Part shown: piece after piece, positions 5,094 through 34,064 of the stretch
How positions within the stretch are numbered: position 1 is the first letter of the stretch
How the letters are laid out: every line of letters begins with the position of its first letter
Notes under the pieces: generated by a model
Database searches by the model: none
Seen by the model: the letters and a program-made list of their open reading frames with translations, nothing else
Told to the model about the DNA's origin: nothing
Made by a program: the position numbers and the translations under genes
Source: Cinnamomum chago
Lineage: Eukaryota > Streptophyta > Magnoliopsida > Laurales > Lauraceae
Reading direction: 5' to 3'
Assembly (NCBI GenBank): GCA_038049695.1
Contig: CP142451.1
Location: 67,337,501 to 67,401,500, forward strand
DNA length: 64,000 nt

Positions 5094-5384
5094 ACTTGAA
5101 AGCTTTCTCCCCCTTTGATGGATAGGAGATCTTCGAGTACTTGAACTCTCGAACTCTCTCCCCCTTTGCCATTAAATTGCAAAGGTACCTACACACATGA
5201 AATAAGAAAAATACCTTGAGTAGCACCTGTTAACAAATGAAATCGAAAATGAAATACATAACAGGCTATCATGTATGGAAAAAGTCTCTAAGGGTTCAAA
5301 GGCAATCCTAGGGTCAATTTGATCAAAACTAATACTTCCTATGAAGGTTTACACTCCCCCTCAATCCATTCTCTTCTTTTGTCA

Positions 5385-7500
5385 AACTTTTGACAAGATT
5401 TAACTATTAGGTGCAAGAAGAAGATGGTTTAACCAATTGAGGGTCAACTTCAAGAAAAGGATTAGATTCATATAACTATAAGGCACAATATGATCAAATT
5501 ACCTAAAAGAGAGCTAGGTCTAATGAGAAAAGCAATCATGGATATCAATTGGACAAACAAAGAATACCAATTGAGATTTAGGATATGACTTAATAAATCA
5601 ATCACTCTAAAATGGATTTAAAAGTATAACTATTATGAGAAATCCAAATTAGAGCTATCCATGATATGGGGTTTACTCAAACATAGCATCAATCAATATT
5701 ACTTATGAAAAACATATGCTATGTAAGATTTTGAAAATCATTTCATTCAATCAATAAATATGACTTATTAAAGTGCAAATTGAGTGAAATGAAATTCAAG
5801 CATGAAGCCAACCTCAACTAATAACCAACCAATATTATGAACACATAAACATGGTGGTCATGATATATACCTATATGAGCAAAAGAGGTGGCAACATGAA
5901 CATTATGATGCTAATGGTGTGTGACATGGAACAATCATATTACTTATCAAGTTCAATCCAATGCACACAAGGTTTATCACATTCACAAGAAATCAAATCA
6001 ATCAAACATTATACCAATTGAATCCAATTGAATTTGATAACATGATAAAGAGCAAGAATGTGACAAAACTTCCATCAAGCATCATAAGTGCATATTCATC
6101 ACTTTTAAAGATATAACTATAGAGCATAGTGATGAACAAGATAAATTTCAATGCTAAAGGATATGACTTTGAAATGCATGCAATTTATAAAGTGACTAAA
6201 TCATATGAATTCAACATCTAAGATGTCCATCAAACATATAGAAATATGAGGAATGGATTTCAAAGAGTTTCATATGATTAAGATCACTACTTATGAAGTT
6301 GAAACATGTATAAGGATGACACCAAGAGAATCTACATGAATCAACATCATAACCATCCAAAAAGAAATGACTATAAAGCATAGAGGATGGATTTGAGTTC
6401 TAGTATGGTTTCTACAAATATAATAAATAACACAACCATACATAGAACAATTTGACATTTGCATAGAGAGGATTAATCAACACTCAAGATCTAACTCATA
6501 CCAATCATTAAAAAGAATATAACTATTTAAGCACAAGAAGGTATGAAGTTAAAAGAATCAATCTATCATGTAACATCTCCACTCTTAGCAAATGTACTAA
6601 GCTTACAATGCAATGAAAAAGGATATGAGGTCTATATCAAATGAACTTAGTACATTAAATCACAAATGCACTTAAAAAGCTCAAAAACAAGATTTTACTA
6701 TAAAGCACATAAACACTCATTAATTTGCATTAATGAAACTATATACCAAAATAGGCACAAACATGCAAATCATATCCAACCATGCAATGTAAGACAACAA
6801 AATCAATTTGCATAAAGAATGTAACTCAATGAGCAAAGATGCAAATTGTTTGTAAAAATTATTTCCTTTCAAAAGATACAATCATAATTAGGCACAAGGA
6901 AATAAATTCAAGGAAAATGCTTCTATAAATATAACTAATAAAGCTTAGAACATTTTCCAAAGTTTTTCAAATCACTTCAATGTATGAAATTCCAACAAAG
7001 AATCATTTATAGAATTAAGAGCAAGTGATTTTGAAAAACAAGAAGTGTACTATTGTAAAGTTTTCAATTTGTAAAAACAATAGACACTTACAAATTTTCC
7101 ATATCAAAAGATATAACTTGTAAATCAATGGAAAACTAAGGTTGCTTCAAATCATTTGATTTCCAAAAAGGATCTAACTATGACAAACATCAAATGATTT
7201 TCCAACATCAATTGATCATGAAAAACTAGCTATGAAAGCATTTGTAATCACAATCAATTGATCATGAATAGATATGCACTACAAGAAATATAACTATATG
7301 ATCAAAATGCAAATCCATCATGAAAAGGTTGCAATCAAAGGATTTTGAAAACCATGAGATATAACTATAAAAGTTCATGAAGACAAAATCAAATGATCAC
7401 AAAGAAACATTGCATTTTAAAAGATGAGACTAAAAAGAAACAAAATGCAAATGTATCATGACCAACAAATAGATATGACTAAAAAGAATAGGTTGGTTTA
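5385..7500 (-). repeat. Hairpin array, SIRE-A copy 1
   Basis: About 20 consecutive inverted repeats with different arms. Examples of arm pairs: 5681-5689/5716-5724, 5739-5751/5779-5791, 6095-6103/6128-6136, 6199-6209/6269-6279, 6591-6601/6646-6656, 6804-6813/6839-6848, 6859-6868/6896-6905, 6963-6977/7023-7038, 7149-7160/7189-7200, 7410-7418/7442-7450. Loops repeatedly contain a word near GATATAACTAT, often followed by AAGCACAAG. No coding capacity. Confidence 0.8.
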
Positions 7501-7787
7501 GGGGGATCAAGGCCTTAAGGTTACTCAAATAGTCTACCTTTGAAAATTCACCTAAAGCCTTGAAAAGGTTGTCCTTGAAAGATCACTTTGAGGACTCACC
7601 AACTCTAGAAGATATAACTTGAGAAAGTCTTAGAGTGGTGCAAAGAGGCTAGGGAAAATTCATTTTCAAACATAGTGGAAATCTTTAAAAAGATATGCAA
7701 TAAATCACAACACTAGGGTTCAAATCTAGCAAGGATCAACTCCGGGTTGTTAAGCCCTAAAATGGAGTAACCCGCTCTGATAGCACT
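7500..7787 (-). other. Gag-tail remnant and leader, SIRE-A copy 1
   Basis: This stretch aligns with the 3' end of the SIRE-B gag ORF (around 30480-30600) and then reaches the primer site (variant of TGGTATCAGAGC on the minus strand) next to the LTR at 7788. It suggests that SIRE-A descends from a SIRE-B-like element by loss of most of gag. Confidence 0.6.
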
Positions 7788-9436
7788 TGTAAATCCATGG
7801 GGATCCGAACCCTAGAGGGGGGGTGAATAGGGTGAGCTTCTTTTATGACCAATTTTAACAATTTTAACTTCTTTAAAACAAACTAGTCACAAGTGATGAT
7901 TATCAAACAAAATGCGGAAGCTTAAAGAAAACAATCACCACAAAGCAAGCACCATCACACAAGTATTTATAGTGGTTCGGCCTCAATGCCTACATCCACT
8001 ACCGGCTTGTGATCCAACACCCCACCGGATTTCCACTATTTATGCTTTTCAATAGGCTAAGCAATAACCTTTACAATATGCTTTCCAAGGCTAAGCAATA
8101 ACCTTACATTGATGTTTTTCAAGGCTTAACATCAACCTATACATTATGCTTTTATAGGCTGAGCAATAACCTCTTCAACCACATGGTTGGTTATCTCACT
8201 AAGTTGTGTCTTTAATACACTAGATGGAGATTCATTTTAGCTCATTACATTGCCTCTTAATTAGGCGGATATGGAAGTGAAAAACTAATACACACTCACA
8301 CTATGGATGCAAAGATGAAAGTACATGAAGTGTGTGTGTGTGGTCCTCAATCATTTTGAAAATGGAAGCTCATAAATGTATGCCTAAGGCTTTTGAAAGT
8401 TTTAGCTCAAAAACATTTATGATTGAGGAAATGCTAATCACATGTTAAAAGTAACAACTTGTTAATGAGATCAAAGATTTACAAGTTGTATGAAATGAAT
8501 TAGCACTAAACATGTGATGCATAGGGATGTCAATCAAATCAACATGAAGCTCAAAACATAAAAATAGATTTGATTGAAATAAGGGGACAAATCATATGTA
8601 ATTATAAATACAACTTGAATATGATATACCAATCAAAGTGATGCAAGTTGTGAAACTATAAAACAATAATACACATATGATTTGTAAACATGTTGAATCC
8701 AAAACATAAGATATATTTGAAAAGGATTTTCTTATGATGGAAAACAACAACCAAAGATTCAACAAAGTATATGAATCATGTTACATATTTCATTAACATG
8801 ATCTACTTAGATTTACCAAAGATAAAGTACTACTTTGATGAATCAATGGTGATGTATCCAAAACAATAGATCTATTCAAAATATAACACATGCTAAGGAT
8901 ACAACACATCATAGGTTAACATGTTACTAAGATTTACCAATGATAAAACAAAACATGAAAACATATGATTTGTAAAGAAGTTGAATCCAAAACATAAGTT
9001 AGTTTTGAAAGAGATGTTCTTATGATGGAAAACAACAACCAAAGATTCAACCAAGTATATGGATCATGTTACATATAATTCCAAAGGTTTTTCCATTAAC
9101 ATGATCTACTTAGATTTACCAAAGTTAAGTACTACTTGGATTGAATCATATGATGTTGTATCCAAAACAATAAATCAACTCAAAACATAAAACATGTTAA
9201 GGACACAACACAAACATAGTTTAACATGCTAGAAATGATTTACCAAAAATAAAACAAAGCATGAAAACATATGATTAAGGAAGGAAGAGCCTACTTGGTG
9301 GTTTAACTTCATTAATCCAAGCTTTAGCTTTCCTAATCATCCCCTTCATCCCTTGGTTCTTTTCCCTTTTGATATGCCTCAATACCTCTCAAGGAGGGGC
9401 TTAAAATTCCCAACTTTTGGTAAGGGAAAGAACTCA

Positions 9437-9444
9437 TATTTATA
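9437..9444 (-). promoter_or_regulatory. TATA box of SIRE-A LTR
   Basis: TATAAATA on the minus strand, about 25 bases downstream (in element sense) of the palindrome island. The same arrangement is at 14614-14621 in the right LTR. Confidence 0.6.
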
Positions 9445-9470
9445 GCAAAAAGTTGCCAACGGCTAGTCCT

Positions 9471-9609
9471 CGGTCGACCGGCAAAGAGGTCTCGGTCGAC
9501 CGGGAAGGCACAACGGTCAGATTTCTGACCGTTGGAGGTTTCAGTTCAGAAACTGCAGGTTTTACCTCCAGTTGTCTCGGTCGACCGAGACCTGCCTCTC
9601 GGTCGACCG
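9471..9609. repeat. Palindrome island of SIRE-A LTR (GTCGAC type)
   Basis: Four GGTCGACC-centred palindromes: 9471-9480, 9493-9502, 9575-9590 (16-base TCTCGGTCGACCGAGA) and 9600-9609. Between the two pairs lies an inverted repeat with 11-base arms (CAACGGTCAGA at 9511-9521, TCTGACCGTTG at 9524-9534). A duplicate island is at 14648-14786. Confidence 0.9.
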
Positions 9610-10003
9610 GCGACACTGCCGGGACAGCCTCCCTTTGACAAAAAATGCAACTTTTGCATATTTGAAGGTTTTTCTATGGGGGACATTTTGGCCACTAAAT
9701 CAAGCTTGAAAAACATGTTTTAAAGATTCTAATGGTTTTTAAAACATGAACATAAAAAGCCTAAAAAGATTCAAAACTTTAAAAACAAAGGCTTGCTTGA
9801 TTTCTTGAAAACTCTTTTCTAAAACAAATGCATCCAAGTTTTAAAAACAAATCATGCATAAATCAATACTTTTATAAATCTTAAAAGCAATGCATGAATA
9901 AAACAAGATTTCAAGTTTATTTAAAACCAATGCAAGTGTGTAAATCAAATGATGCTTGAATGATAATGCATCCATCAAATTGCAATCTAGAAAATTCCTA
10001 ACA

Positions 10004-10545
10004 ATCTCCCCCTTTGCAATTTGATGGCAAACACACTCACCACTGAGATTACACACTTAGTCTTCAGCTCCCCCTCAGCTGGACAAGTCTTGAAATCTTC
10101 TTGGATGCTTCTCTTAGCTTGGGCTCTTTTCTTCTCTTCATTCTTCATGATGCTTGGAGCTTGATCATTCTTCAATCTTTCTTTCTTTAGCCAAGCATAT
10201 TCTTTAGCTCCAAGCTTTGTTTCTTCTATTGGCTCTCCCCCTTTGACCATGCTTCTTTCTCCTCTTGAGAACTTGAAAGCTTTCTCCCCCTTTGATGGAT
10301 AGGAGATCTTCGAGTACTTGAACTCTCGAACTCTCTCCCCCTTTGCCATTAAATTGCAAAGGTACCTACACACATGAAATAAGAAAAATACCTTGAGTAG
10401 CACCTGTTAACAAATGAAATCGAAAATGAAATACATAACAGGCTCTCATGTATGGAAAAAGTCTCTAAGGGTTCAAAGGCAATCCTAGGGTCAATTTGAT
10501 CAAAACTAATACTTCCTATGAAGGTTTACACTCCCCCTCAATCCA
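10004..10545 (-). promoter_or_regulatory. Multiple polypurine tracts, SIRE-A
   Basis: The sense strand repeats CAAAGGGGGAG or close variants next to the 3' LTR: plus-strand CTCCCCC words near 10005, 10068, 10233, 10283, 10334 and 10530. The one touching the LTR at 10003 is the expected plus-strand primer. Multiple polypurine tracts are a known feature of Sireviruses. Copies near 5107-5175 belong to the truncated left unit. Confidence 0.8.
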
Positions 10546-10561
10546 TTCTCTTCTTTTGTCA

Positions 10562-12677
10562 AACTTTTGACAAGATTTAACTATTAGGTGCAAGAAGAAG
10601 ATGGTTTAACCAATTGAGGGTCAACTTCAAGAAAAGGATTAGATTCATATAACTATAAGGCACAATATGATCAAATTACCTAAAAGAGAGCTAGGTCTAA
10701 TGAGAAAAGCAATCATGGATATCAATTGGACAAACAAAGAATACCAATTGAGATTTAGGATATGACTTAATAAATCAATCACTCTAAAATGGATTTAAAA
10801 GTATAACTATTATGAGAAATCCAAATTAGAGCTATCCATGATATGGGGTTTACTCAAACATAGCATCAATCAATATTACTTATGAAAAACATATGCTATG
10901 TAAGATTTTGAAAATCATTTCATTCAATCAATAAATATGATTTATTAAAGTGCAAATTGAGTGAAATGAAATTCAAGCATGAAGCCAACCTCAACTAATA
11001 ACCAACCAATATTATGAACACATAAACATGGTGGTCATGATATATACCTATATGAGCAAAAGAGGTGGCAACATGAACATTATGATGCTAATGGTGTGTG
11101 ACATGGAACAATCATATTACTTATCAAGTTCAATCCAATGCACACAAGGTTTATCACATTCACAAGAAATCAAATCAATCAAACATTATACCAATTGAAT
11201 CCAATTGAATTTGATAACATGATAAAGAGCAAGAATGTGACAAAACTTCCATCAAGCATCATAAGTGCATATTCATCACTTTTAAAGATATAACTATAGA
11301 GCCTAGTGATGAACAAGATAAATTGCAATGCTAAAGGATATGACTTTGAAATGCATGCAATTTATAAAGTGACTAAATCATATGAATTCAACATCTAAGA
11401 GGTCCATCAAACATATAGAAATATGAGGAATGGATTTCAAAGAGTTTCATATGATTAAGATCACTACTTATGAAGTTGAAACATGTATAAGGATGACACC
11501 AAGAGAATCTACATGAATCAACATCATAACCATCCAAAAAGAAATGACTATAAAGCATAGAGGATGGATTTGAGTTCTAGTATGGTTTCTACAAATATAA
11601 TAAATAACACAACCATACATAGAACAATTTGACATTTGCATAGAGAGGATTAATCAACACTCAAGATCTAACTCATACCAATCATTAAAAAGAATATAAC
11701 TATTTAAGCACAAGAAGGTATGAAGTTAAAAGAATCAATCTATCATGTAACATCTCCACTCTTAGCAAATGTACTAAGCTTACAATGCAATGAAAAAGGA
11801 TATGAGGTCTATATCAAATGAACTTAGTACATTAAATCACAAATGCACTTAAAAAGCTCAAAAACAAGATTTTACTATAAAGCACATAAACACTCATTAA
11901 TTTGCATTAATGAAACTATATACCAAAATAGGCACAAACATGCAAATCATATCCAACCATGCAATGTAAGACAACAAAATCAATTTGCATAAAGAATGTA
12001 ACTCAATGAGCAAAGATGCAAATTGTTTGTAAAAATTATTTCCTTTCAAAAGATACAATCATAATTAGGCACAAGGAAATAAATTCAAGGAAAATGCTTC
12101 TATAAATATAACTAATAAAGCTTAGAACATTTTCCAAAGTTTTTCAAATCACTTCAATGTATGAAATTCCAACAAAGAATCATTTATAGAATTAAGAGCA
12201 AGTGATTTTGAAAAACAAGAAGTGTACTATTGTAAAGTTTTCAATTTGTAAAAACAATAGACACTTACAAATTTTCCATATCAAAAGATATAACTTGTAA
12301 ATCAATGGAAAACTAAGGTTGCTTCAAATCATTTGATTTCCAAAAAGGATCTAACTATGACAAACATCAAATGATTTTCCAACATCAATTGATCATGAAA
12401 AACTAGCTATGAAAGCATTTGTAATCACAATCAATTGATCATGAATAGATATGCACTACAAGAAATATAACTATATGATCAAAATGCAAATCCATCATGA
12501 AAAGGTTGCAATCAAAGGATTTTGAAAACCATGAGATATAACTATAAAAGTTCATGAAGACAAAATCAAATGATCACAAAGAAACATTGCATTTTAAAAG
12601 ATGAGACTAAAAAGAAACAAAATGCAAATGTATCATGACCAACAAATAGATATGACTAAAAAGAATAGGTTGGTTTA
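10562..12677 (-). repeat. Hairpin array, SIRE-A copy 2
   Basis: Same array as 5385-7500, shifted by 5177. One of the few differences lies in an arm: at 11325 this copy has G, giving a perfect 8-base pairing of 11320-11327 with 11356-11363, where copy 1 has T at 6148. SIRE-B also has G there. Confidence 0.8.
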
Positions 12678-12947
12678 GGGGGATCAAGGCCTTAAGGTTA
12701 CTCAAATAGTCTACCTTTGAAAATTCACCTAAAGCCTTGAAAAGGTTGTCCTTGAAAGATCACTTTGAGGACTCACCAACTCTAGAAGATATAACTTGAG
12801 AAAGTCTTAGAGTGGTGCAAAGAGGCTAGGGAAAATTCATTTTCAAACATAGTGGAAATCTTTAAAAAGATATGCAATAAATCACAACACTAGGGTTCAA
12901 ATCTAGCAAGGATCAACTCCGGGTTGTTAAGCCCTAAAATGGAGTAA

Positions 12948-12962
12948 CCCGCTCTGATACCA
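12948..12962 (-). promoter_or_regulatory. Primer binding site of SIRE-A
   Basis: Minus strand TGGTATCAGAGCGGG, two bases from the LTR at 12965; matches the 3' end of plant initiator-Met tRNA. Confidence 0.85.
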
Positions 12963-12964
12963 CT

Positions 12965-15180
12965 TGTAAATCCATGGGGATCCGAACCCTAGAGGGGGGG
13001 TGAATAGGGTGAGCTTCTTTTATGACCAATTTTAACAATTTTAACTTCTTTAAAACAAACTAGTCACAAGTGATGATTATCAAACAAAATGCGGAAGCTT
13101 AAAGAAAACAATCACCACAAAGCAAGCACCATCACACAAGTATTTATAGTGGTTCGGCCTCAATGCCTACATCCACTACCGGCTTGTGATCCAACACCCC
13201 ACCGGATTTCCACTATTTATGCTTTTCAATAGGCTAAGCAATAACCTTTACAATATGCTTTCCAAGGCTAAGCAATAACCTTACATTGATGTTTTTCAAG
13301 GCTTAACATCAACCTATACATTATGCTTTTATAGGCTGAGCAATAACCTCTTCAACCACATGGTTGGTTATCTCACTAAGTTGTGTCTTTAATACACTAG
13401 ATGGAGATTCATTTTAGCTCATTACATTGCCTCTTAATTAGGCGGATATGGAAGTGAAAAACTAATACACACTCACACTATGGATGCAAAGATGAAAGTA
13501 CATGAAGTGTGTGTGTGTGGTCCTCAATCATTTTGAAAATGGAAGCTCATAAATGTATGCCTAAGGCTTTTGAAAGTTTTAGCTCAAAAACATTTATGAT
13601 TGAGGAAATGCTAATCACATGTTAAAAGTAACAACTTGTTAATGAGATCAAAGATTTACAAGTTGTATGAAATGAATTAGCACTAAACATGTGATGCATA
13701 GGGATGTCAATCAAATCAACATGAAGCTCAAAACATAAAAATAGATTTGATTGAAATAAGGGGACAAATCATATGTAATTATAAATACAACTTGAATATG
13801 ATATACCAATCAAAGTGATGCAAGTTGTGAAACTATAAAACAATAATACACATATGATTTGTAAACATGTTGAATCCAAAACATAAGATATATTTGAAAA
13901 GGATTTTCTTATGATGGAAAACAACAACCAAAGATTCAACAAAGTATATGAATCATGTTACATATTTCATTAACATGATCTACTTAGATTTACCAAAGAT
14001 AAAGTACTACTTTGATGAATCAATGGTGATGTATCCAAAACAATAGATCTATTCAAAATATAACACATGCTAAGGATACAACACATCATAGGTTAACATG
14101 TTACTAAGATTTACCAATGATAAAACAAAACATGAAAACATATGATTTGTAAAGAAGTTGAATCCAAAACATAAGTTAGTTTTGAAAGAGATGTTCTTAT
14201 GATGGAAAACAACAACCAAAGATTCAACCAAGTATATGGATCATGTTACATATAATTCCAAAGGTTTTTCCATTAACATGATCTACTTAGATTTACCAAA
14301 GTTAAGTACTACTTGGATTGAATCATATGATGTTGTATCCAAAACAATAAATCAACTCAAAACATAAAACATGTTAAGGACACAACACAAACATAGTTTA
14401 ACATGCTAGAAATGATTTACCAAAAATAAAACAAAGCATGAAAACATATGATTAAGGAAGGAAGAGCCTACTTGGTGGTTTAACTTCATTAATCCAAGCT
14501 TTAGCTTTCCTAATCATCCCCTTCATCCCTTGGTTCTTTTCCCTTTTGATATGCCTCAATACCTCTCAAGGAGGGGCTTAAAATTCCCAACTTTTGGTAA
14601 GGGAAAGAACTCATATTTATAGCAAAAAGTTGCCAACGGCTAGTCCTCGGTCGACCGGCAAAGAGGTCTCGGTCGACCGGGAAGGCACAACGGTCAGATT
14701 TCTGACCGTTGGAGGTTTCAGTTCAGAAACTGCAGGTTTTACCTCCAGTTGTCTCGGTCGACCGAGACCTGCCTCTCGGTCGACCGGCGACACTGCCGGG
14801 ACAGCCTCCCTTTGACAAAAAATGCAACTTTTGCATATTTGAAGGTTTTTCTATGGGGGACCTTTTGGCCACTAAATCAAGCTTGAAAAACATGTTTTAA
14901 AGATTCTAATGGTTTTTAAAACATGAACATAAAAAGCCTAAAAAGATTCAAAACTTTAAAAACAAAGGCTTGCTTGATTTCTTGAAAACTCTTTTCTAAA
15001 ACAAATGCATCCAAGTTTTAAAAACAAATCATGCATAAATCAATACTTTTATAAATCTTAAAAGCAATGTTTGAATAAAACAAGATTTCAAGTTTATTTA
15101 AAACCAATGCAAGTGTGTAAATCAAATGATGCTTGAATGATAATGCATCTATCAAATTGCAATCTAGAAAATTCCTAACA
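12965..15180 (-). mobile_element. SIRE-A LTR, right copy (2216 bp)
   Basis: In element sense this is the 5' LTR. Its outer end abuts copia sequence at 15181 (cctat), the presumed target. It contains a TATA box at 14614-14621 and a palindrome island at 14648-14786, as in the left copy. Confidence 0.9.
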
Positions 15181-26169: not shown

Positions 26170-26464
26170 AAGACTGAAAGTCCGCTATGGATCCTAACCC
26201 TAGAGGGGGGGTGAATAGGGTGAGCTACAATTATGACCAATTTCGACCAATTTTAATTTCTTAACTTAAACTAGTCACAAGTGATGATTAACAATCAAAA
26301 TGCGGAAGCTAAACAAACTCAATCACCACATAGCATGCACCACAACACCAATGTTTATAGTGGTTCGGCCTCAATGCCTACATCCACTACCGGCTTGTGA
26401 ATCCAATCACCCCACCGGATTTCCACTATTTATGCTTTTAACTAGGCTAAGCAATAACCCTTAC

Positions 26465-26605
26465 AAAATGCTTTTCAAAGGCTAAGCAATAACCTTACAA
26501 GATGCTTTTCAAAGGCTAAGCAATAACCTTACAAGATGCTTTTCAAAGGCTAAGCAATAACCTTACAAGATGCTTTTCAAAGGCTAAGCAATAACCTTTA
26601 CAAAG
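26465..26605. repeat. 34-bp tandem repeat in SIRE-B LTR
   Basis: About four near-identical copies of a 34-base unit that includes CTTTTCAAAGGCTAAGCAAT. The same array is at 32446-32586. SIRE-A LTRs have diverged copies, so the array was probably re-homogenised in SIRE-B. Confidence 0.9.
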
Positions 26606-27403
26606 TTGATTTCTCAAAGAAGGTGTCTTTCCAAAAGATCACTCTAAGAGATTACAATTTAAGCTCATATGAAATTGCCTCTTGAATAGGCTAATATGAA
26701 AGTTTAATACAAATTCACACAAACACTCTAAGAATGCAAAGATGTATGCTAATGAGGTGTGTGTGTGTGATGACTTCAATCAAGATTAAAAAGGAAGCTT
26801 AATCAAATGTATGCCCAAGGCATTTCAAAGTTTAAGACTCATAAAAGACTTGATTGAAGTTTAATGCAAATCACATGTATGTTTAATAACTTGTTAATGA
26901 TATGAAAATCAAAGAATCACAAGTTGTATGAAAATGACTAACTTAGAACATGTGATGCATGTGCAATGTTGTTTTCAAAAACAAATAGATTTGACTAAAG
27001 TTCAAATGAAAGAAAACAACATATTAGGTTTCAACCAAAACAAAGAATCATGCATTAAAGGAAATCAAAGACTTTAGCTAAGCATGATTGAGTAAGGTTT
27101 AAAAAACAACTTGGATTGAAACCAAGGTGAAGAATCCAATCTTAATTAAATCAAAGATTAGGAGAAGAAAGGATTCAACACATCATAGTTATTATGCTAA
27201 ATATCATATACCAATAATTTAAACAAAGCACATAACTATGATTAATAAAGGTAGAGCTTACTTGGAGGTTTAACTCATTAATCCCAAGCTTTAGCTCTCC
27301 TAAAGACCTCCTAGCCTTTCCAACTTCATCCCCTTTGTTTGGCTCCAAAATGCTCTCAAAGGCTCATTTTTTTCAACATTTGAGAAGTTGGAAATAGAAT
27401 GGA

Positions 27404-27410
27404 CTTTATA
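27404..27410 (-). promoter_or_regulatory. TATA box of SIRE-B LTR
   Basis: TATAAAG on the minus strand, ~30 bases downstream in sense of the palindrome island; repeated at 33385-33391. Confidence 0.6.
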
Positions 27411-27437
27411 GGCAAAAAACAGTCCAACGGCTAGTTG

Positions 27438-27586
27438 TCTCGGTCGACCTAGAGGGGTCTCGGTCGACCGAGAAGGCACAACGGTCATAAATCTGACCGT
27501 TGGAGGCTTACAGTTCAAAAACTGCACAGGGCCCTGCAGTGTCCTCGGTCGACCGAGACCCAGGTCTCGGTCGACCGGCGACACTG
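27438..27586. repeat. Palindrome island of SIRE-B LTR
   Basis: GGTCGACC-centred palindromes, the longest TCTCGGTCGACCGAGA at 27458-27473, with an AACGGTCA/TGACCGTT inverted repeat between the pairs, as in SIRE-A. Duplicate near 33419-33567. Confidence 0.9.
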
Positions 27587-28078
27587 CCGGGACACCCCCA
27601 AAAATTCCAACTTTTGCATTTTGAAGATTTTCTTTGTGGAATTTTGTGGGTCACTAAACCAAGCTTAAAAACATGTTTTAAAACATTTAATAACATGAAA
27701 CACACAAAGCCTAAAATGATTCAAAGGTTTAAAACCAAAGGCAAGCTTGATTAGTAAAAACTCTTTTCAAATCAAATTGCATACAAAACTGATTCTAAAG
27801 GTGCTGAATGTATGCAAAGCTCAAACCTAAATTCACAAGAAGATTTTCCAAATCTAATGCACAAGGAATTTGGTTTTCAAAAGAGTTTTGGGTTCTAAAA
27901 CCAATGCATCCAAGTTTAGAACCAAACCATGCATAAAACACAAACTTTTCCAAATCTAAAAACCAATGCATGTATAAAGCTAGATTTCAAGATATTTTAA
28001 ATCAATGCATGTGTGTGAATTCAAATGATGCCAATATGCAAATGCATCCACCAAATTGCAAAAACAAAATACCTAACA

Positions 28079-28690
28079 ATCTCCCCCTTTGCAATTTGAT
28101 GGCAACTTACTCATCATTGAAATTACACACTCTGTCTTCAGCTCCCCCTCAGCTGGACAAGTCTTGAAATCTTCTTCTTGGATGCTCCTTCTCTTAGCTT
28201 GGGCTCTTGGGCTCTTTTCTTCAATCTTCTTGATGCTTGGAGCTTGATCATTCTTCAAGCTTTCTTTCCATCTTCCTCTCTTTAGCCAAGCATCTTCTTT
28301 AGCTCCAAGCTTTCTTTCTTCTATTTGCTCTCCCCCTTTGACCATGCTTCTTTCTTCTCTTGAGAACTTGAAAGCTTTCTCCCCCTTTGATGGATAGGAG
28401 ATCTTCGAGTACTTGAACTCTCGAACTCTCTCCCCCTTTGATGAGTAGGAGATCTTTGAGTACTTAAACTCTCTCCCCCTTTGACATTAAATTGCAAAGG
28501 AACCTACACACATGAAATAAGGAAAATACCTTTAGTAGCACCTGTTAACAAATGAAATCGAAAAAGAAATACATAACAGGCTATCATGTGAGGTAAAAGT
28601 CTCTAAGGGCTCAAAGGCAATCCAAGGGTCAATTTGATCAAAACTAATACTTCCTATGAAGGTTTACACTCCCCCTCAATCCATTCTCTT
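28079..28690 (-). promoter_or_regulatory. Multiple polypurine tracts, SIRE-B
   Basis: CTCCCCCTTTG-type words near 28081, 28329, 28379, 28431 and 28475, with CTCCCCCTCA variants near 28144 and 28670. The tract touching the LTR is the expected plus-strand primer. The spacing pattern resembles SIRE-A with extra copies. Confidence 0.8.
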
Positions 28691-30478
28691 CTTTTGTCAA
28701 ACTATTGACAAGGTATAACTATTTGGTTCAAGAAGTAGATGGTTTAACCAAGTGAGGGTCAACTTCAAGGAAATGATTAGATTCATTTAACTATAAAGCT
28801 CATATGATCAAATTACCAAAAGAAGGCAAGGTCTAATGGGAAAAGCAATCATGGATATCAATTGAAATAAACATATCAATTGAGATTTAAGGATGTGACT
28901 ATTAGCACAATCACTCTAAAATGGATTCAAGAATTTTACTTATTAGGAAAAATCCAAATTAGAGCTATCCATGATATGGGGTTTACTCAAACATAGCATC
29001 AATCAATATTACTTATGAAAATCATATGCTATGTAAGATTTGAACTCATTTCATTCAATCAATAAATATGACTATTAAAGTGCATGAATGAGTGAAATGA
29101 AATTCAATCATGAAGCCAACCTCAACTAATAACCAACCAATATTATGAACACATAAACATGGTGGTCATGAGATATAACTATAAGAACAAAAGAGGAGGC
29201 AATCATGAGCAATATGATGCTAATGGTGTGTGACATGGAACAAATATATTACTAATCAAGTTTAGTCCAATGCACACAAGGTCTATCACATACACAAGAT
29301 AAGATATCAATTGGATATGAAATCAATGGAAAGTTATACCAAATGAAACCAATTGAATATGATAACATGAGTAAAAGCAAGGATGTGATAAACTTCCATC
29401 AAGCAACACTAATGCATATTCATCACTTTTAAGGATATAACTATTGAGCATAGTGATGAACAAGGCAAATTGCAATGCAAAAGGATAAAGCTTTGTAATG
29501 CATGCAATTTCCAAAGTGTCTAGATCATATGAATTCAACACTAAGAAATCCATCAAACAAGAGATATAACTATGAAATACAAGAAATGGATTTCAAATAG
29601 GTACATATGATCAAGAACACTACTATGAAGTTGAAACGTGTATAAGGATGACTCCAAGAGAATCTACATGAATCAACATCATAACCATCCATAAAGATAT
29701 GACTAGAGAGCATAGAGGATGGATTTAGGTTCTAGTATGGTTTCTACAAATGTTACAAGTTCACAACCATACATGGAACCAATTGTCATTTGCAAATAAA
29801 AAGAATGTAAATAAACAAGCAAGGATGCAAACAACATACATTTCCATTTCTAAGATAATGAAACCAAAAGAAAAGGAAATGAGAATCATGGAACATGCTT
29901 TGATGAATCTAACTAATGAAGTTATAGAGCATTTCCAATCATCCACTCTTCAAATCATTTCAATAAACAAAATTCAACAATGAGCATAAAAGGAATGATT
30001 TTGAAGATCAATTTTCAACATGTATATTAAAAGATATAACTTAATTGAAACACATACAAGTTGAATAATTCAAAACAATGAATTTCCATATAAGGGTATA
30101 ACTTATAAATCCATGGAGAAACTTGAATTGAATCAAATCATTTGATTTACAAAAAGGATCTAACTAAGACATACATCAAATGATTCAACAATTGATCATG
30201 AAGAGTCTAGCTATGAAAGCTTTTGAAAACACAATCAATTGATCATGTAAAGAAATGCAATGCAAGGCATATGAGTGCAAAAAGCAAATCAAACATGATG
30301 AATTTATAATCAAGAGATTTTGAAAACCATGACATGTAACTTAGAAAGGTGCATGAAAACAAAATCAAATGATCATAAAGAAGCAATGCATTTTAAGAAA
30401 TCTAACTAAAAGAAACAAAATGCAAATGCAATCATGACCAACAAAGTGATTTAACTAATAAAGAGTAGGTTGGTCAAT
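28690..30478 (-). repeat. Hairpin array, SIRE-B
   Basis: Diverged version of the SIRE-A array. Arm pairs include 29523-29531/29604-29612, nested 29545-29553/29586-29594, 29839-29845/29875-29881, 29948-29959/29994-30006 and 30435-30442/30469-30476. Loops again carry GATATAACTAT-like words. Several arms differ from SIRE-A by changes on both sides that preserve pairing. Confidence 0.78.
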
Positions 30479-30491
30479 GAGGTTCAAGACC

Positions 30492-32054
30492 CTAAGGTTT
30501 GTCTAGGTAAATGACTTTGGGAATCCACCTAAGGTCTTGAGAGGGTTGAACTTTGAGGTCTATTTTGGAATTCTCACCAACTAAAGGAGATTTAACTTGA
30601 TAAATTTTCAATTTGAACTTATCACCATGATATTTAGATTTTACTAAATTTGGCTTAGAATGGTGATTAGTCTTTTGATGTTGGTGAGTTTTCTTCTTAG
30701 GGGATAGATTCATTTTTCTTTTCTTCTTACTTTCTCCCTTTACTTGACTTTTGAATTTTAGATTTAACTTAGCAACTTTCTTCAAAAGTTCTTTCATGGG
30801 TTCATATAAGGGAGGTAGGTTGAGAAGCTTTTTGTTTTTAGATTCTTTCAAGCTTGGTTTAACTTGTTTAAGCTTTTTAGAATCTATCTTGGGAGACTCC
30901 TTTTTAAGAGATTTAACTTGTTTAGACATTTTGGAGTCTTTCTTGATTTTTAGTGTCTTACCCTTCATAGGTTTTGATTCTCCATTTTTTAGTTCAAAGA
31001 TGGGTTTAGACACATGGCTTCTCTTTCTTAGTTTGCACTCAAATGTAAAATGTCCTTCAATGCCACAATAATTACATTTAGACTTGGGCAAAGAAGTGTG
31101 AGTGCTAGAGAATGAGGACTCACCTTTCACAAAAGTGTTGGTGAATTTAGGGTTATAAGACATATTCCTATTAAATCCAATACCCGTCCTATCTCCATGA
31201 TGTTTACCCAATTTAAATAATTTTTCAAGTCTATCTTCACTTTGGGTAAACTTGCACTCATACTTTTGTTTATAGGTTTCAAGTTGAGTGACTTTGGTTA
31301 TAAGGATTGAATTTTCATTTTTGACTTTTGAAAGTTCATTTTCAAGTTCCTTATATTTGATTAGCTCTTCATTGGCAAGTTGTAATTTATGTTTAAGGTC
31401 ATTAACAACATTAGTTCCAAGCTCTTGAGTTTTTAACTTACTTTTGATCAACTTGGCTTCTAAGTTGTTAAAGTCTTTATCTTGTCTTTTAATTGTATCT
31501 CTTAGGTTTAAATTTTCATTTTTAAGTTCATCACAATTTATCTTAATCTCATTTAATTCATCTTGAGCATTAGATAAATTTTCCTTAGAGATAGTCAATT
31601 TAGATTCAAGATTGTTAAAGTCTTTATCTTGCCTTTGTAATTGATCTCTTTGTTTTAGATTTTCCTTATTGACATTATCATAATCCATCTTTAATTCTTT
31701 TAGTTCATCTTGAATGTTAGATAGATTATTTAAAGAGATCATGAACTTAAAGTCTAGACATTTTATTACTTCTTCTTTCTCTCTAAGTTCATCTTTTGAA
31801 GAGGCTAGATCTTTGGTTAGATTCATAGATTCTTCTCTTAAGCTTTTGTTTCTTTTATCAAGCTTTGTAGATAATGTATATAATTCATTGTAGGCTTGTT
31901 GAAGATCATCTTCATCATACTCATTTTCTTCCTCTTTTGAGTCAAATTGATATTCATTTAATTGATGGTTTGAATCTCTAATAGAAGGAAGAGTGAGAGG
32001 TCTAGAAGAATCTACAAAGTCTATCCTAGTGGAGTCCATTCTAAAGATTTTCAA
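30492..32054 (-). CDS. Gag-like coiled-coil zinc-knuckle protein of SIRE-B
   Basis: 520 residues, uninterrupted. The N-terminal ~40 residues are followed by a charged coiled coil (about 45-285) with an internal ~49-residue repeat; RQDKDFNNLE occurs at about 141 and 190. A CCHC knuckle, CNYCGIEGHFTFEC, spans 327-340. The tail is very Lys/Ser-rich. The end, DLRWIPKVIYLDKP, resembles the gag end before protease in copia elements. The usual UBN2 capsid segment is not evident, so it may be the C-terminal part of an ancestral gag. Likely role: RNA binding or assembly with partner particles; this is inference. A Met at residue 6 is an alternative start. Confidence 0.75.
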   Translation of the reverse strand: MKIFRMDSTRIDFVDSSRPLTLPSIRDSNHQLNEYQFDSKEEENEYDEDDLQQAYNELYTLSTKLDKRNKSLREESMNLTKDLASSKDELREKEEVIKCLDFKFMISLNNLSNIQDELKELKMDYDNVNKENLKQRDQLQRQDKDFNNLESKLTISKENLSNAQDELNEIKINCDELKNENLNLRDTIKRQDKDFNNLEAKLIKSKLKTQELGTNVVNDLKHKLQLANEELIKYKELENELSKVKNENSILITKVTQLETYKQKYECKFTQSEDRLEKLFKLGKHHGDRTGIGFNRNMSYNPKFTNTFVKGESSFSSTHTSLPKSKCNYCGIEGHFTFECKLRKRSHVSKPIFELKNGESKPMKGKTLKIKKDSKMSKQVKSLKKESPKIDSKKLKQVKPSLKESKNKKLLNLPPLYEPMKELLKKVAKLNLKFKSQVKGESKKKRKMNLSPKKKTHQHQKTNHHSKPNLVKSKYHGDKFKLKIYQVKSPLVGENSKIDLKVQPSQDLRWIPKVIYLDKP

Positions 32055-32141
32055 ATAAGCACAACTCTAGGGTTTTAACTCTAGGTTTTTACACCTAATC
32101 AAGAGTTCCAACTACTTGATCCTAAGGGATTAGAGCACTTG

Positions 32142-32153
32142 GCTCTGATACCA
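32142..32153 (-). promoter_or_regulatory. Primer binding site of SIRE-B
   Basis: Minus strand TGGTATCAGAGC, two bases from the 5' LTR at 32156; initiator-Met tRNA type. Confidence 0.88.
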
Positions 32154-32155
32154 AT

Positions 32156-34059
32156 TGAAAGTCCGCTATGGATCCTAACCCTAGAGGGGGGGTGAATAGG
32201 GTGAGCTACAATTATGACCAATTTCGACCAATTTTAATTTCTTAACTTAAACTAGTCACAAGTGATGATTAACAATCAAAATGCGGAAGCTAAACAAACT
32301 CAATCACCACATAGCATGCACCACAACACCAATGTTTATAGTGGTTCGGCCTCAATGCCTACATCCACTACCGGCTTGTGAATCCAATCACCCCACCGGA
32401 TTTCCACTATTTATGCTTTTAACTAGGCTAAGCAATAACCCTTACAAAATGCTTTTCAAAGGCTAAGCAATAACCTTACAAGATGCTTTTCAAAGGCTAA
32501 GCAATAACCTTACAAGATGCTTTTCAAAGGCTAAGCAATAACCTTACAAGATGCTTTTCAAAGGCTAAGCAATAACCTTTACAAAGTTGATTTCTCAAAG
32601 AAGGTGTCTTTCCAAAAGATCACTCTAAGAGATTACAATTTAAGCTCATATGAAATTGCCTCTTGAATAGGCTAATATGAAAGTTTAATACAAATTCACA
32701 CAAACACTCTAAGAATGCAAAGATGTATGCTAATGAGGTGTGTGTGTGTGATGACTTCAATCAAGATTAAAAAGGAAGCTTAATCAAATGTATGCCCAAG
32801 GCATTTCAAAGTTTAAGACTCATAAAAGACTTGATTGAAGTTTAATGCAAATCACATGTATGTTTAATAACTTGTTAATGATATGAAAATCAAAGAATCA
32901 CAAGTTGTATGAAAATGACTAACTTAGAACATGTGATGCATGTGCAATGTTGTTTTCAAAAACAAATAGATTTGACTAAAGTTCAAATGAAAGAAAACAA
33001 CATATTAGGTTTCAACCAAAACAAAGAATCATGCATTAAAGGAAATCAAAGACTTTAGCTAAGCATGATTGAGTAAGGTTTAAAAAACAACTTGGATTGA
33101 AACCAAGGTGAAGAATCCAATCTTAATTAAATCAAAGATTAGGAGAAGAAAGGATTCAACACATCATAGTTATTATGCTAAATATCATATACCAATAATT
33201 TAAACAAAGCACATAACTATGATTAATAAAGGTAGAGCTTACTTGGAGGTTTAACTCATTAATCCCAAGCTTTAGCTCTCCTAAAGACCTCCTAGCCTTT
33301 CCAACTTCATCCCCTTTGTTTGGCTCCAAAATGCTCTCAAAGGCTCATTTTTTTCAACATTTGAGAAGTTGGAAATAGAATGGACTTTATAGGCAAAAAA
33401 CAGTCCAACGGCTAGTTGTCTCGGTCGACCTAGAGGGGTCTCGGTCGACCGAGAAGGCACAACGGTCATAAATCTGACCGTTGGAGGCTTACAGTTCAAA
33501 AACTGCACAGGGCCCTGCAGTGTCCTCGGTCGACCGAGACCCAGGTCTCGGTCGACCGGCGACACTGCCGGGACACCCCCAAAAATTCCAACTTTTGCAT
33601 TTTGAAGATTTTCTTTGTGGAATTTTGTGGGTCACTAAACCAAGCTTAAAAACATGTTTTAAAACATTTAATAACATGAAACACACAAAGCCTAAAATGA
33701 TTCAAAGGTTTAAAACCAAAGGCAAGCTTGATTAGTAAAAACTCTTTTCAAATCAAATTGCATACAAAACTGATTCTAAAGGTGCTGAATGTATGCAAAG
33801 CTCAAACCTAAATTCACAAGAAGATTTTCCAAATCTAATGCACAAGGAATTTGGTTTTCAAAAGAGTTTTGGGTTCTAAAACCAATGCATCCAAGTTTAG
33901 AACCAAACCATGCATAAAACACAAACTTTTCCAAATCTAAAAACCAATGCATGTATAAAGCTAGATTTCAAGATATTTTAAATCAATGCATGTGTGTGAA
34001 TTCAAATGATGCCAATATGCAAATGCATCCACCAAATTGCAAAAACAAAATACCTAACA
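32156..34059 (-). mobile_element. SIRE-B 5' LTR (1904 bp)
   Basis: No visible difference from 26175-28078. In element sense this is the promoter-bearing LTR, with a TATA box at 33385-33391 and a palindrome island just upstream in sense near 33419-33567. Confidence 0.93.
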
Positions 34060-34064
34060 AAGAC

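Follow-up and report, generated by a model that had tools for sequence, protein, structure and literature searches.

The window, that is, the whole 64,000-nucleotide stretch of Cinnamomum chago DNA analysed here, contains two related LTR elements, designated A and B, both with their sense on the minus strand (Table 1). Positions 5385-7500 have a near-identical twin at 10562-12677, within a repeat with an offset of 5177 (5094-10003 vs 10271-15180, 10 of 4910 bases differing). Across this repeat of element A the order is internal region, LTR, internal region, LTR. The terminal polypurine tract (PPT) of A, GGGGGAGA, abuts the LTR edge. Close to the end of the LTR lies a run of C; Sirevirus LTRs carry a C-rich integrase signal as well as a TATA box.

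Table 1. Coordinates of the features of elements A and B in the window.
Feature	Position	Strand	Remarks
Hairpin array, first copy	5370..7640	-	internal, non-coding part of A; minus is the sense strand
Hairpin array, second copy of A	10547..12817	-	offset 5177
LTR of element A	7788..10003	-	2216 bp; CGGTCGACCG boxes within 9471-9609, besides inverted repeats rich in AT
LTR of element A, 5' copy	12965..15180	-	
Primer binding site of A	12951..12962	-	TGGTATCAGAGC; junction CA-AGTGG-TATCAGAGC
Primer binding site of A, 1 mismatch	7774..7785	-	TGCTATCAGAGC
Six polypurine tracts of A	10005..10537	-	CTCCCCC on + at 10006, 10068, 10235, 10284, 10335, 10531
Inverted repeat 14/14, spanning terminal polypurine tract and LTR edge of A	9972..10027 (9972-9985/10014-10027)	.	
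Hairpin array of related element B	28858..30476	-	
gag-type ORF of B	30494..32066	-	524 codons, CCHC-like knuckle
LTR of B, 3' copy	26175..28079	-	5' copy ~32156-34060, 100% identical

As described in the accessible part of PMC2829016, the signatures of Sireviruses include a primer binding site (PBS) junction CA-ATTGG (or AGTGG)-TATCAGAGC, several PPT octamers of which the terminal one lies where the 3' LTR attaches, an inverted repeat with its left arm next to that terminal PPT, and CGG-CCG boxes in the LTR. Here, the junction reads CAAGTGGTATCAGAGC in A (12951-12966, minus) and CAATTGGTATCAGAGC in B (from 32142, minus). GGGGGAGATTGTTAGG is found at the LTR edge and CTCCCCC occurs six times in the complete A copy and seven times in B; the octamer letters used for this match are those we take to be the Sirevirus ones. 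The terminal PPT is bordered by an inverted repeat in A (14/14) and in B (28052-28062/28088-28098, 11/11), and CGGTCGACCG boxes are present at 9471, 9493, 9578 and 9600. Distinct from these CG-rich boxes, the A LTR contains AT-rich stems with arms of 11-12 bp (e.g. 8344-8354/8419-8429), and similar stems occur in the B LTR at 32156-34060. The LTRs have fold z-scores of -7.0 to -9.6 (the A LTR being scored on its copy 12963-15180).

The complete internal region of A has no frame above 134 codons and thus no gag-sized one; its longest stop-to-stop frame (134 aa in 10004-12950) lies over the PPT zone. A coding origin of this region was rejected on that ground, judged on frames alone. Window self-comparison gave no match of the region to the B gag frame beyond 30604, and neither A nor B has a pol-sized frame. 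It follows from the LTR/PBS/PPT layout on the minus strand that the string of hairpins takes up the greater part of the non-coding interior of A between PBS and PPT, and that the sense strand is minus. Judged from these sequence landmarks, positions 5385-7500 are non-coding internal region, lying between PBS and PPT cluster, of a non-autonomous Sirevirus-like LTR element. Elsewhere in the genome, matches recur at fixed spacings of ~5.2-6.0 kb (12 units at G000:C4:70274855-70334415, 4 at C6:12032654-12050459 and 9 at C6:38699913-38749295, among the matches listed), as would be expected for head-to-tail LTR-internal arrays such as the one seen directly in the window.

In element B (26175-34060), the gag frame begins ~75 bases past the PBS and is followed by the same kind of hairpin string; apart from gag, no sense frame exceeds 135 codons. 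The Gag of Sireviruses has a CCHC knuckle and a coiled coil; two zinc-knuckle profiles match the B gag frame below the Pfam cut-offs (zf-CCHC_3, E 0.003; zf-CCHC, E 0.014). At 30747-30789, inside this frame, a 9-bp stem carries a loop with GATTTAACTTAG, close to the loop motif described below, so that the array may reach into the coding sequence of B.

The first-pass annotation had described positions 5385-7500 as a string of hairpins with unrelated arms and a shared loop motif. The four hairpins quoted there are all present where it had placed them; that at 6963-6977/7023-7038 is one long bulged stem, in which the perfect stems 6962-6971/7030-7039 and 6969-6977/7023-7031 overlap. A scan of 5385-7500 for perfect arms with loops of 3-70 bases, compared with 100 dinucleotide shuffles, gave 22 stems with arms of at least 8 (shuffle mean 5.0, maximum 13), 12 with arms of at least 9 (1.41, maximum 4) and 7 with arms of at least 10 (0.42, maximum 2). 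With loops of 12-60 bases, 12 stems with arms of at least 9 are found vs a mean of 0.96 and a maximum of 5, a density above that of the shuffled controls. The claim of at least ten inverted repeats with arms of at least 9 therefore holds, 12 being counted in 5385-7500. Other claims needed adjustment. Most arms do differ between units, but some recur (ATGCAAAT/ATTTGCAT at 6723, 6763, 6806 and 6839), and the array, though located where it had been described, continues to ~7640, with two further motif hairpins near or beyond 7500 (stem-loops at 7472 and 7611). The longest perfect stem of the A array is 12 bp. An origin of the array by tandem repetition was rejected because the motif spacing is irregular. 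Folding in 300-nt tiles yields z-scores of -10.2 on the sense strand and -7.6 on the antisense strand, whereas two control stretches scored between -1.7 and -4.9. For the minus-strand RNA of A, the prediction is a row of ~20 short hairpins.

The loop motif GATATAACTAT is strongly enriched in 5385-7500. Compared with 200 shuffles, it occurs 7 times with at most one mismatch (mean 0.1, maximum 3), 15 times with at most two (1.1, maximum 5; ~14-fold) and 22 times with at most three (9.8, maximum 19). Its orientation is fixed: over 5094-7773, 16 matches lie on the plus strand and none on the minus strand at up to two mismatches (23 and 8 at up to three), vs 7 and 6 on the two strands outside the array, at 35000-64000. 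Among the 21 loops of the window array of A (arms of at least 8), 9 hold the motif, vs 4.6 for random segments (6 of 300 placements reach this value), and none does when the same loops are reverse-complemented; the motif loops typically measure 20-37 bases. The mean best stem flanking the motif is 6.7 bp vs 5.6 over circular shifts, a value reached by 0.13% of shifts for the 22 matches at up to three mismatches and by 1.1% for the 16 at up to two. By shifts and by random placement, the motif is therefore found inside loops more often than expected by chance, as the annotation had anticipated. However, the sharing is partial, with 12 of the 21 loops devoid of the motif, and the AAGCACAAG tail said to follow it is only weakly shared (0.06-0.58 bit per column).

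Within the motif, one part stands out. In the A copies, the diversity of the loop core ACTA is 0.021, vs 0.092 in its flanks and 0.093 at other ACTA tetramers. This value is low but not unique: control tetramers range from 0.029 (TGAT) to 0.094, and a diversity this low turns up in 37 of 2092 shifts. The diversity of the whole motif (0.067 in 26 A copies) is not below that of other sites. When the commonest variant of each unit is considered, ACT is intact in 14 of 15 units of A and in 10 of the 15 units of B aligned to the A motif. From the comparison of copies, the core ACTA (UAGU in sense RNA) is conserved and the rest of the loop is not. Together with the fixed orientation, this supports the idea of a shared loop.

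Selection on the arms was evaluated in the same 26 A copies, the window array and its twin being left out here and in the G.U counts below. Diversity is 0.0276 in arms of at least 8, vs 0.0493 in distant arms and 0.0576 outside arms, and no circular shift out of 2086 reaches the arm value. The distant arms, equally perfect and 150-1500 bases apart, control for ascertainment. In B, changes present in at least 3 of 20 distinct copies (10 of 30, near-identical at an identity of at least 99.5%, having been left out) affect arm sites least (3.9-5.5%), distant-arm sites more (9.0-9.4%) and non-arm sites most (11.1-11.6%), each range covering four references.

Double changes that preserve Watson-Crick pairing were then counted at the stems of the window array of A in 31 sequences picked for spread, namely 10 of the 27 further A copies, 12 of the 30 B copies, the window copy of B and 8 fetched strings described below. 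For arms of at least 8, they are observed at 15 of 78 polymorphic local pairs vs 20 of 293 distant pairs (p 0.002); the corresponding figures are 20 of 126 vs 53 of 794 for arms of at least 7 (p 0.001), 13 of 47 vs 6 of 84 for at least 9 (p 0.003) and 6 of 27 vs 2 of 37 for at least 10 (p 0.06), p-values that are optimistic because all the copies are related. Such changes make up 17.8% of changed cells at local pairs vs 2.2% at distant ones, and the stem 6962-6977/7023-7039 alone contributes three of these pairs. With stems pooled from 10 reference copies, the excess of double changes becomes smaller (p 0.28, 0.18 and 0.08 for arms of at least 7, 8 and 9), and there is no excess of sense-pairing states. 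Pooling perhaps weakens covariation since each reference adds chance stems; the result was nevertheless counted against the claim. The notion of RNA elements with variable arms is thus supported by the arm constraint in A and B and by covariation against one reference, but less well with pooled references. Overall, the comparison supports the view that the arms are under selection to keep pairing, their sequence being variable.

The strand on which this selection operates can be approached through the kind of change tolerated in arms. In A, arm changes present in at least three copies are located at 14 T, 1 A, 0 C and 0 G of the plus strand, vs 65 T, 93 A, 20 C and 37 G outside arms (T:A in arms vs non-arms, p 0.00014). 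They comprise 7 T>C, which give G.U in minus-strand RNA, 6 T>A (U.U), 1 T>G and no A>G. Rare arm changes, in one or two copies, show no such bias (13 T, 15 A). With three other references, the T:A ratios are 14:0, 11:1 and 14:2, the same copies underlying all of them, and the bias is weaker at arms of at least 7 (20:6); in these counts, the twin (L002) was left out only when the window array served as reference. Counting distinct variant states in A, the sense:antisense ratio of G.U is 16:7, whereas distant pairs give 55:56 (p 0.11). Both strands have low fold energies. What points to the sense RNA is the single orientation of the loop motif and the arm-change signature of A, but B does not replicate this signature (3:5, 6:5, 8:6 and 4:2 in the 20 distinct copies with four references).

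Relatives of A and B were searched in 1.06 Gb of genome. Only the best candidates were scored (40 of 6324, 40 of 7598, 40 of 6539, 82 of 8150 and 85 of 8306), so that these searches favour close, intact copies. For a B-type gag, the best 82 of 8150 candidates have frames that are 517-524 codons long, and 80 of the 82 are free of stops. A protein search (7996 candidates scored) retrieved two metagenome proteins akin to the B gag and similarly short (521 residues, 69% identical; 504 residues, 59% identical), and the second of these, used as query, led to additional gag families whose frames span 451-534 codons (best 85 of 8306 candidates). No relative was found among viral and prokaryote contigs (6 and 54 pattern matches). 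Because the 80 gag-only copies are stop-free and the metagenome relatives are similarly short at 59-69% identity, the gag-only status of these Sirevirus-like copies may be old and maintained.

Behind related gag genes, 17 stretches were fetched (L059-L075). The string is present in eight of them (L063-L069, L074), with 82-93% identity to A or B. Counting A, B and these eight, the 10 untrimmed strings have 14-22 stems with arms of at least 8 vs shuffle means of 2.9-4.6, and 11-16 occurrences of the motif on one strand vs 0-1 on the other. After trimming beyond the PPTs, all 10 retain 11-21 stems vs 2.1-4.0, a number reached by none of 30 shuffles in any string. The excess of the motif in loops is weak in three of the 10 (L065, L066 and L069, where 23, 22 and 46 of 300 random placements do at least as well). 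In L064, the fold z-score is -6.4 on the sense strand and -8.7 on the antisense strand, so that sense is not favoured throughout. The string was not found in the other nine stretches (L059-L062, L070-L073, L075); seven of these were translated, and six of the seven carry a second frame or pieces of one. In five of the nine, the part adjoining gag was examined: motif loops number two among 3 stems in L059, two among 2 in L061 and two among 6 in L075, and L070 and L072 have five stems each after gag, none with the motif. The string is kept both in A, with no frame above 134 codons, and in B, with its gag frame. Two side observations may be added. L074 combines a gag frame of 472 codons, like that of a 470-codon group, with an A/B-type string, so that gag families may have swapped the string as a module. 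In L070, L071 and L073, a second ORF after gag, on the sense strand, holds MARTKQTSRRPSK, MASTKQTFRRESK or MARTKQTFRRKSK, which presumably resemble a histone H3 tail.

The array bears on a question that, to our knowledge, most plant families still pose: how the RNA of gene-less LTR elements comes to be selected for packaging in trans. Arms that pair but are otherwise free, a persistent core, a single orientation, redundancy and retention in an element without genes fit the picture expected of a multivalent cis-acting RNA signal. A selected cis-acting RNA structure is accordingly what we consider probable. The stretch would belong to the genomic RNA of a Sirevirus-like element devoid of coding capacity, whose minus-strand RNA would fold into hairpins; the stem sequence would be largely free provided that pairing holds, the loop would carry the recognition core, and the hairpins would be redundant cis-acting sites through which the RNA is handled in trans. 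A single binding partner, of the kind evoked in the first-pass annotation, is putative; the existence of gag-only relatives suggests Gag as reader. By multivalent binding, the Gag of related gag-encoding elements could ensure selective packaging or particle assembly, and the coding-less A would then exploit, in trans, the Gag of its gag-only relatives. We give roughly even chances to the reading in which the array consists of selected, redundant cis-acting sites, most likely for multivalent Gag binding; for Gag itself as the partner of the hairpins, the chances appear somewhat less than even. More tentatively, one may imagine a packaging code of constant loops and variable stems spread over kilobases, with gag-only relatives supplying Gag and coding-less elements keeping the docking array along with PBS, PPT and LTRs. 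In any case, the array provides a candidate signal that is compact and redundant, combines paired arms of variable sequence with a defined core in the loop, and can be tested directly.

The main rival to Gag is a host protein as reader. The hairpins would still be a selected RNA structure, with another job such as compaction, stability, nuclear export or translation control via a host RNA-binding protein. The evidence for selection (arms, core, double changes, strand bias in A) fits any cis-acting RNA role, many loops (12 of 21) lack the motif, and nothing argues specifically against this alternative, with which the retention of the array in the gag-less A agrees equally well; we hold it to be possible, if doubtful. 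Template switching by reverse transcriptase might also perfect near-complementary arms as a mutational product, without function, and in elements that replicate through RNA it would yield perfect arms together with double changes. However, an unbiased correction should not halve arm diversity, and it explains neither the conserved loop core nor the single motif orientation (16:0), which makes such an origin improbable.

An action at the DNA level, as palindromic protein-binding sites or cruciforms, has been proposed for Sirevirus LTR boxes. According to the part of PMC2829016 at hand, CGG-CCG palindromes lie near the promoter in Sirevirus LTRs, and here they are found within 9471-9609; moreover, some arms of the array recur. 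Yet most arms differ between units and some covary, the loop orientation is fixed and the transmitted arm changes are strand-specific in A, so that this explanation seems very improbable for the array. Still less credit can be given to the array being a source or target of host small RNAs, through hairpin-derived siRNA or loops serving as small-RNA sites. The longest perfect stem, 12 bp, is short for Dicer-like processing. A miRNA or long hairpin precursor was rejected, no stem of ~20 bp being present, and the only two Rfam matches up to E 1 are both to MIR395 and not near the curated threshold (best E 0.86, 21.8 of 56 bits). In favour of small RNAs, predicted hairpins in maize Copia elements accompany more of them, according to the accessible text of PMC10760457.

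The preferred reading, that of selected cis-acting RNA hairpins, can be set against known systems. The first-pass annotation knew of no described counterpart in LTR retrotransposons. In searches of the open-licence literature, a 2-kb array of hairpins that share a loop core while their arms vary, and in part covary, was indeed not found in a retrotransposon, but LARDs and Sirevirus palindromes are partial precedents. With Sireviruses, A shares the PBS junction, the PPT copies, the inverted repeat and the CGG-CCG boxes; unlike them, A and B have no pol-sized frame. The Sirevirus boxes, which have been linked to small RNAs, are near-identical LTR palindromes, mostly with a CGG-CCG core, as far as the available parts of the sources go (PMC2829016, PMC10760457, PMC5311732), whereas the A hairpins are AT-rich, variable between units and internal.

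LARDs and TRIMs keep LTRs, PBS and PPT, are non-coding and have a conserved RNA secondary structure, and the TRIM Cassandra forms LTR-internal tandem arrays; a hairpin string with constant loops and variable arms is not mentioned in the accessible part of this source (PMC7215508). A is similar in its 2216-bp LTRs, its non-coding interior with PBS and PPT kept and its predicted conserved RNA secondary structure, the latter weaker with pooled references. The first-named LARDs are gypsy-class elements of Triticeae. A therefore resembles a LARD but, bearing Sirevirus (Copia) signatures, is not filed as one.

Ty1 is a Copia-type element. Like A, it has a structured RNA, in its case used for packaging; according to the part of PMC5454406 available, however, its packaging and dimerisation hairpins are at the 5' terminus, vs a 2-kb internal array in A. 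In the accessible text of PMC6281560, several RNA viruses, MS2 among them, are described as having dispersed packaging signals. A differs from these systems in that binding by a coat or Gag protein is only putative, in its loops of typically 20-37 nt and in its carrier, a plant LTR element, but shares with them many stem-loops on one genomic RNA with a common loop feature, held here by 9 of 21 loops.
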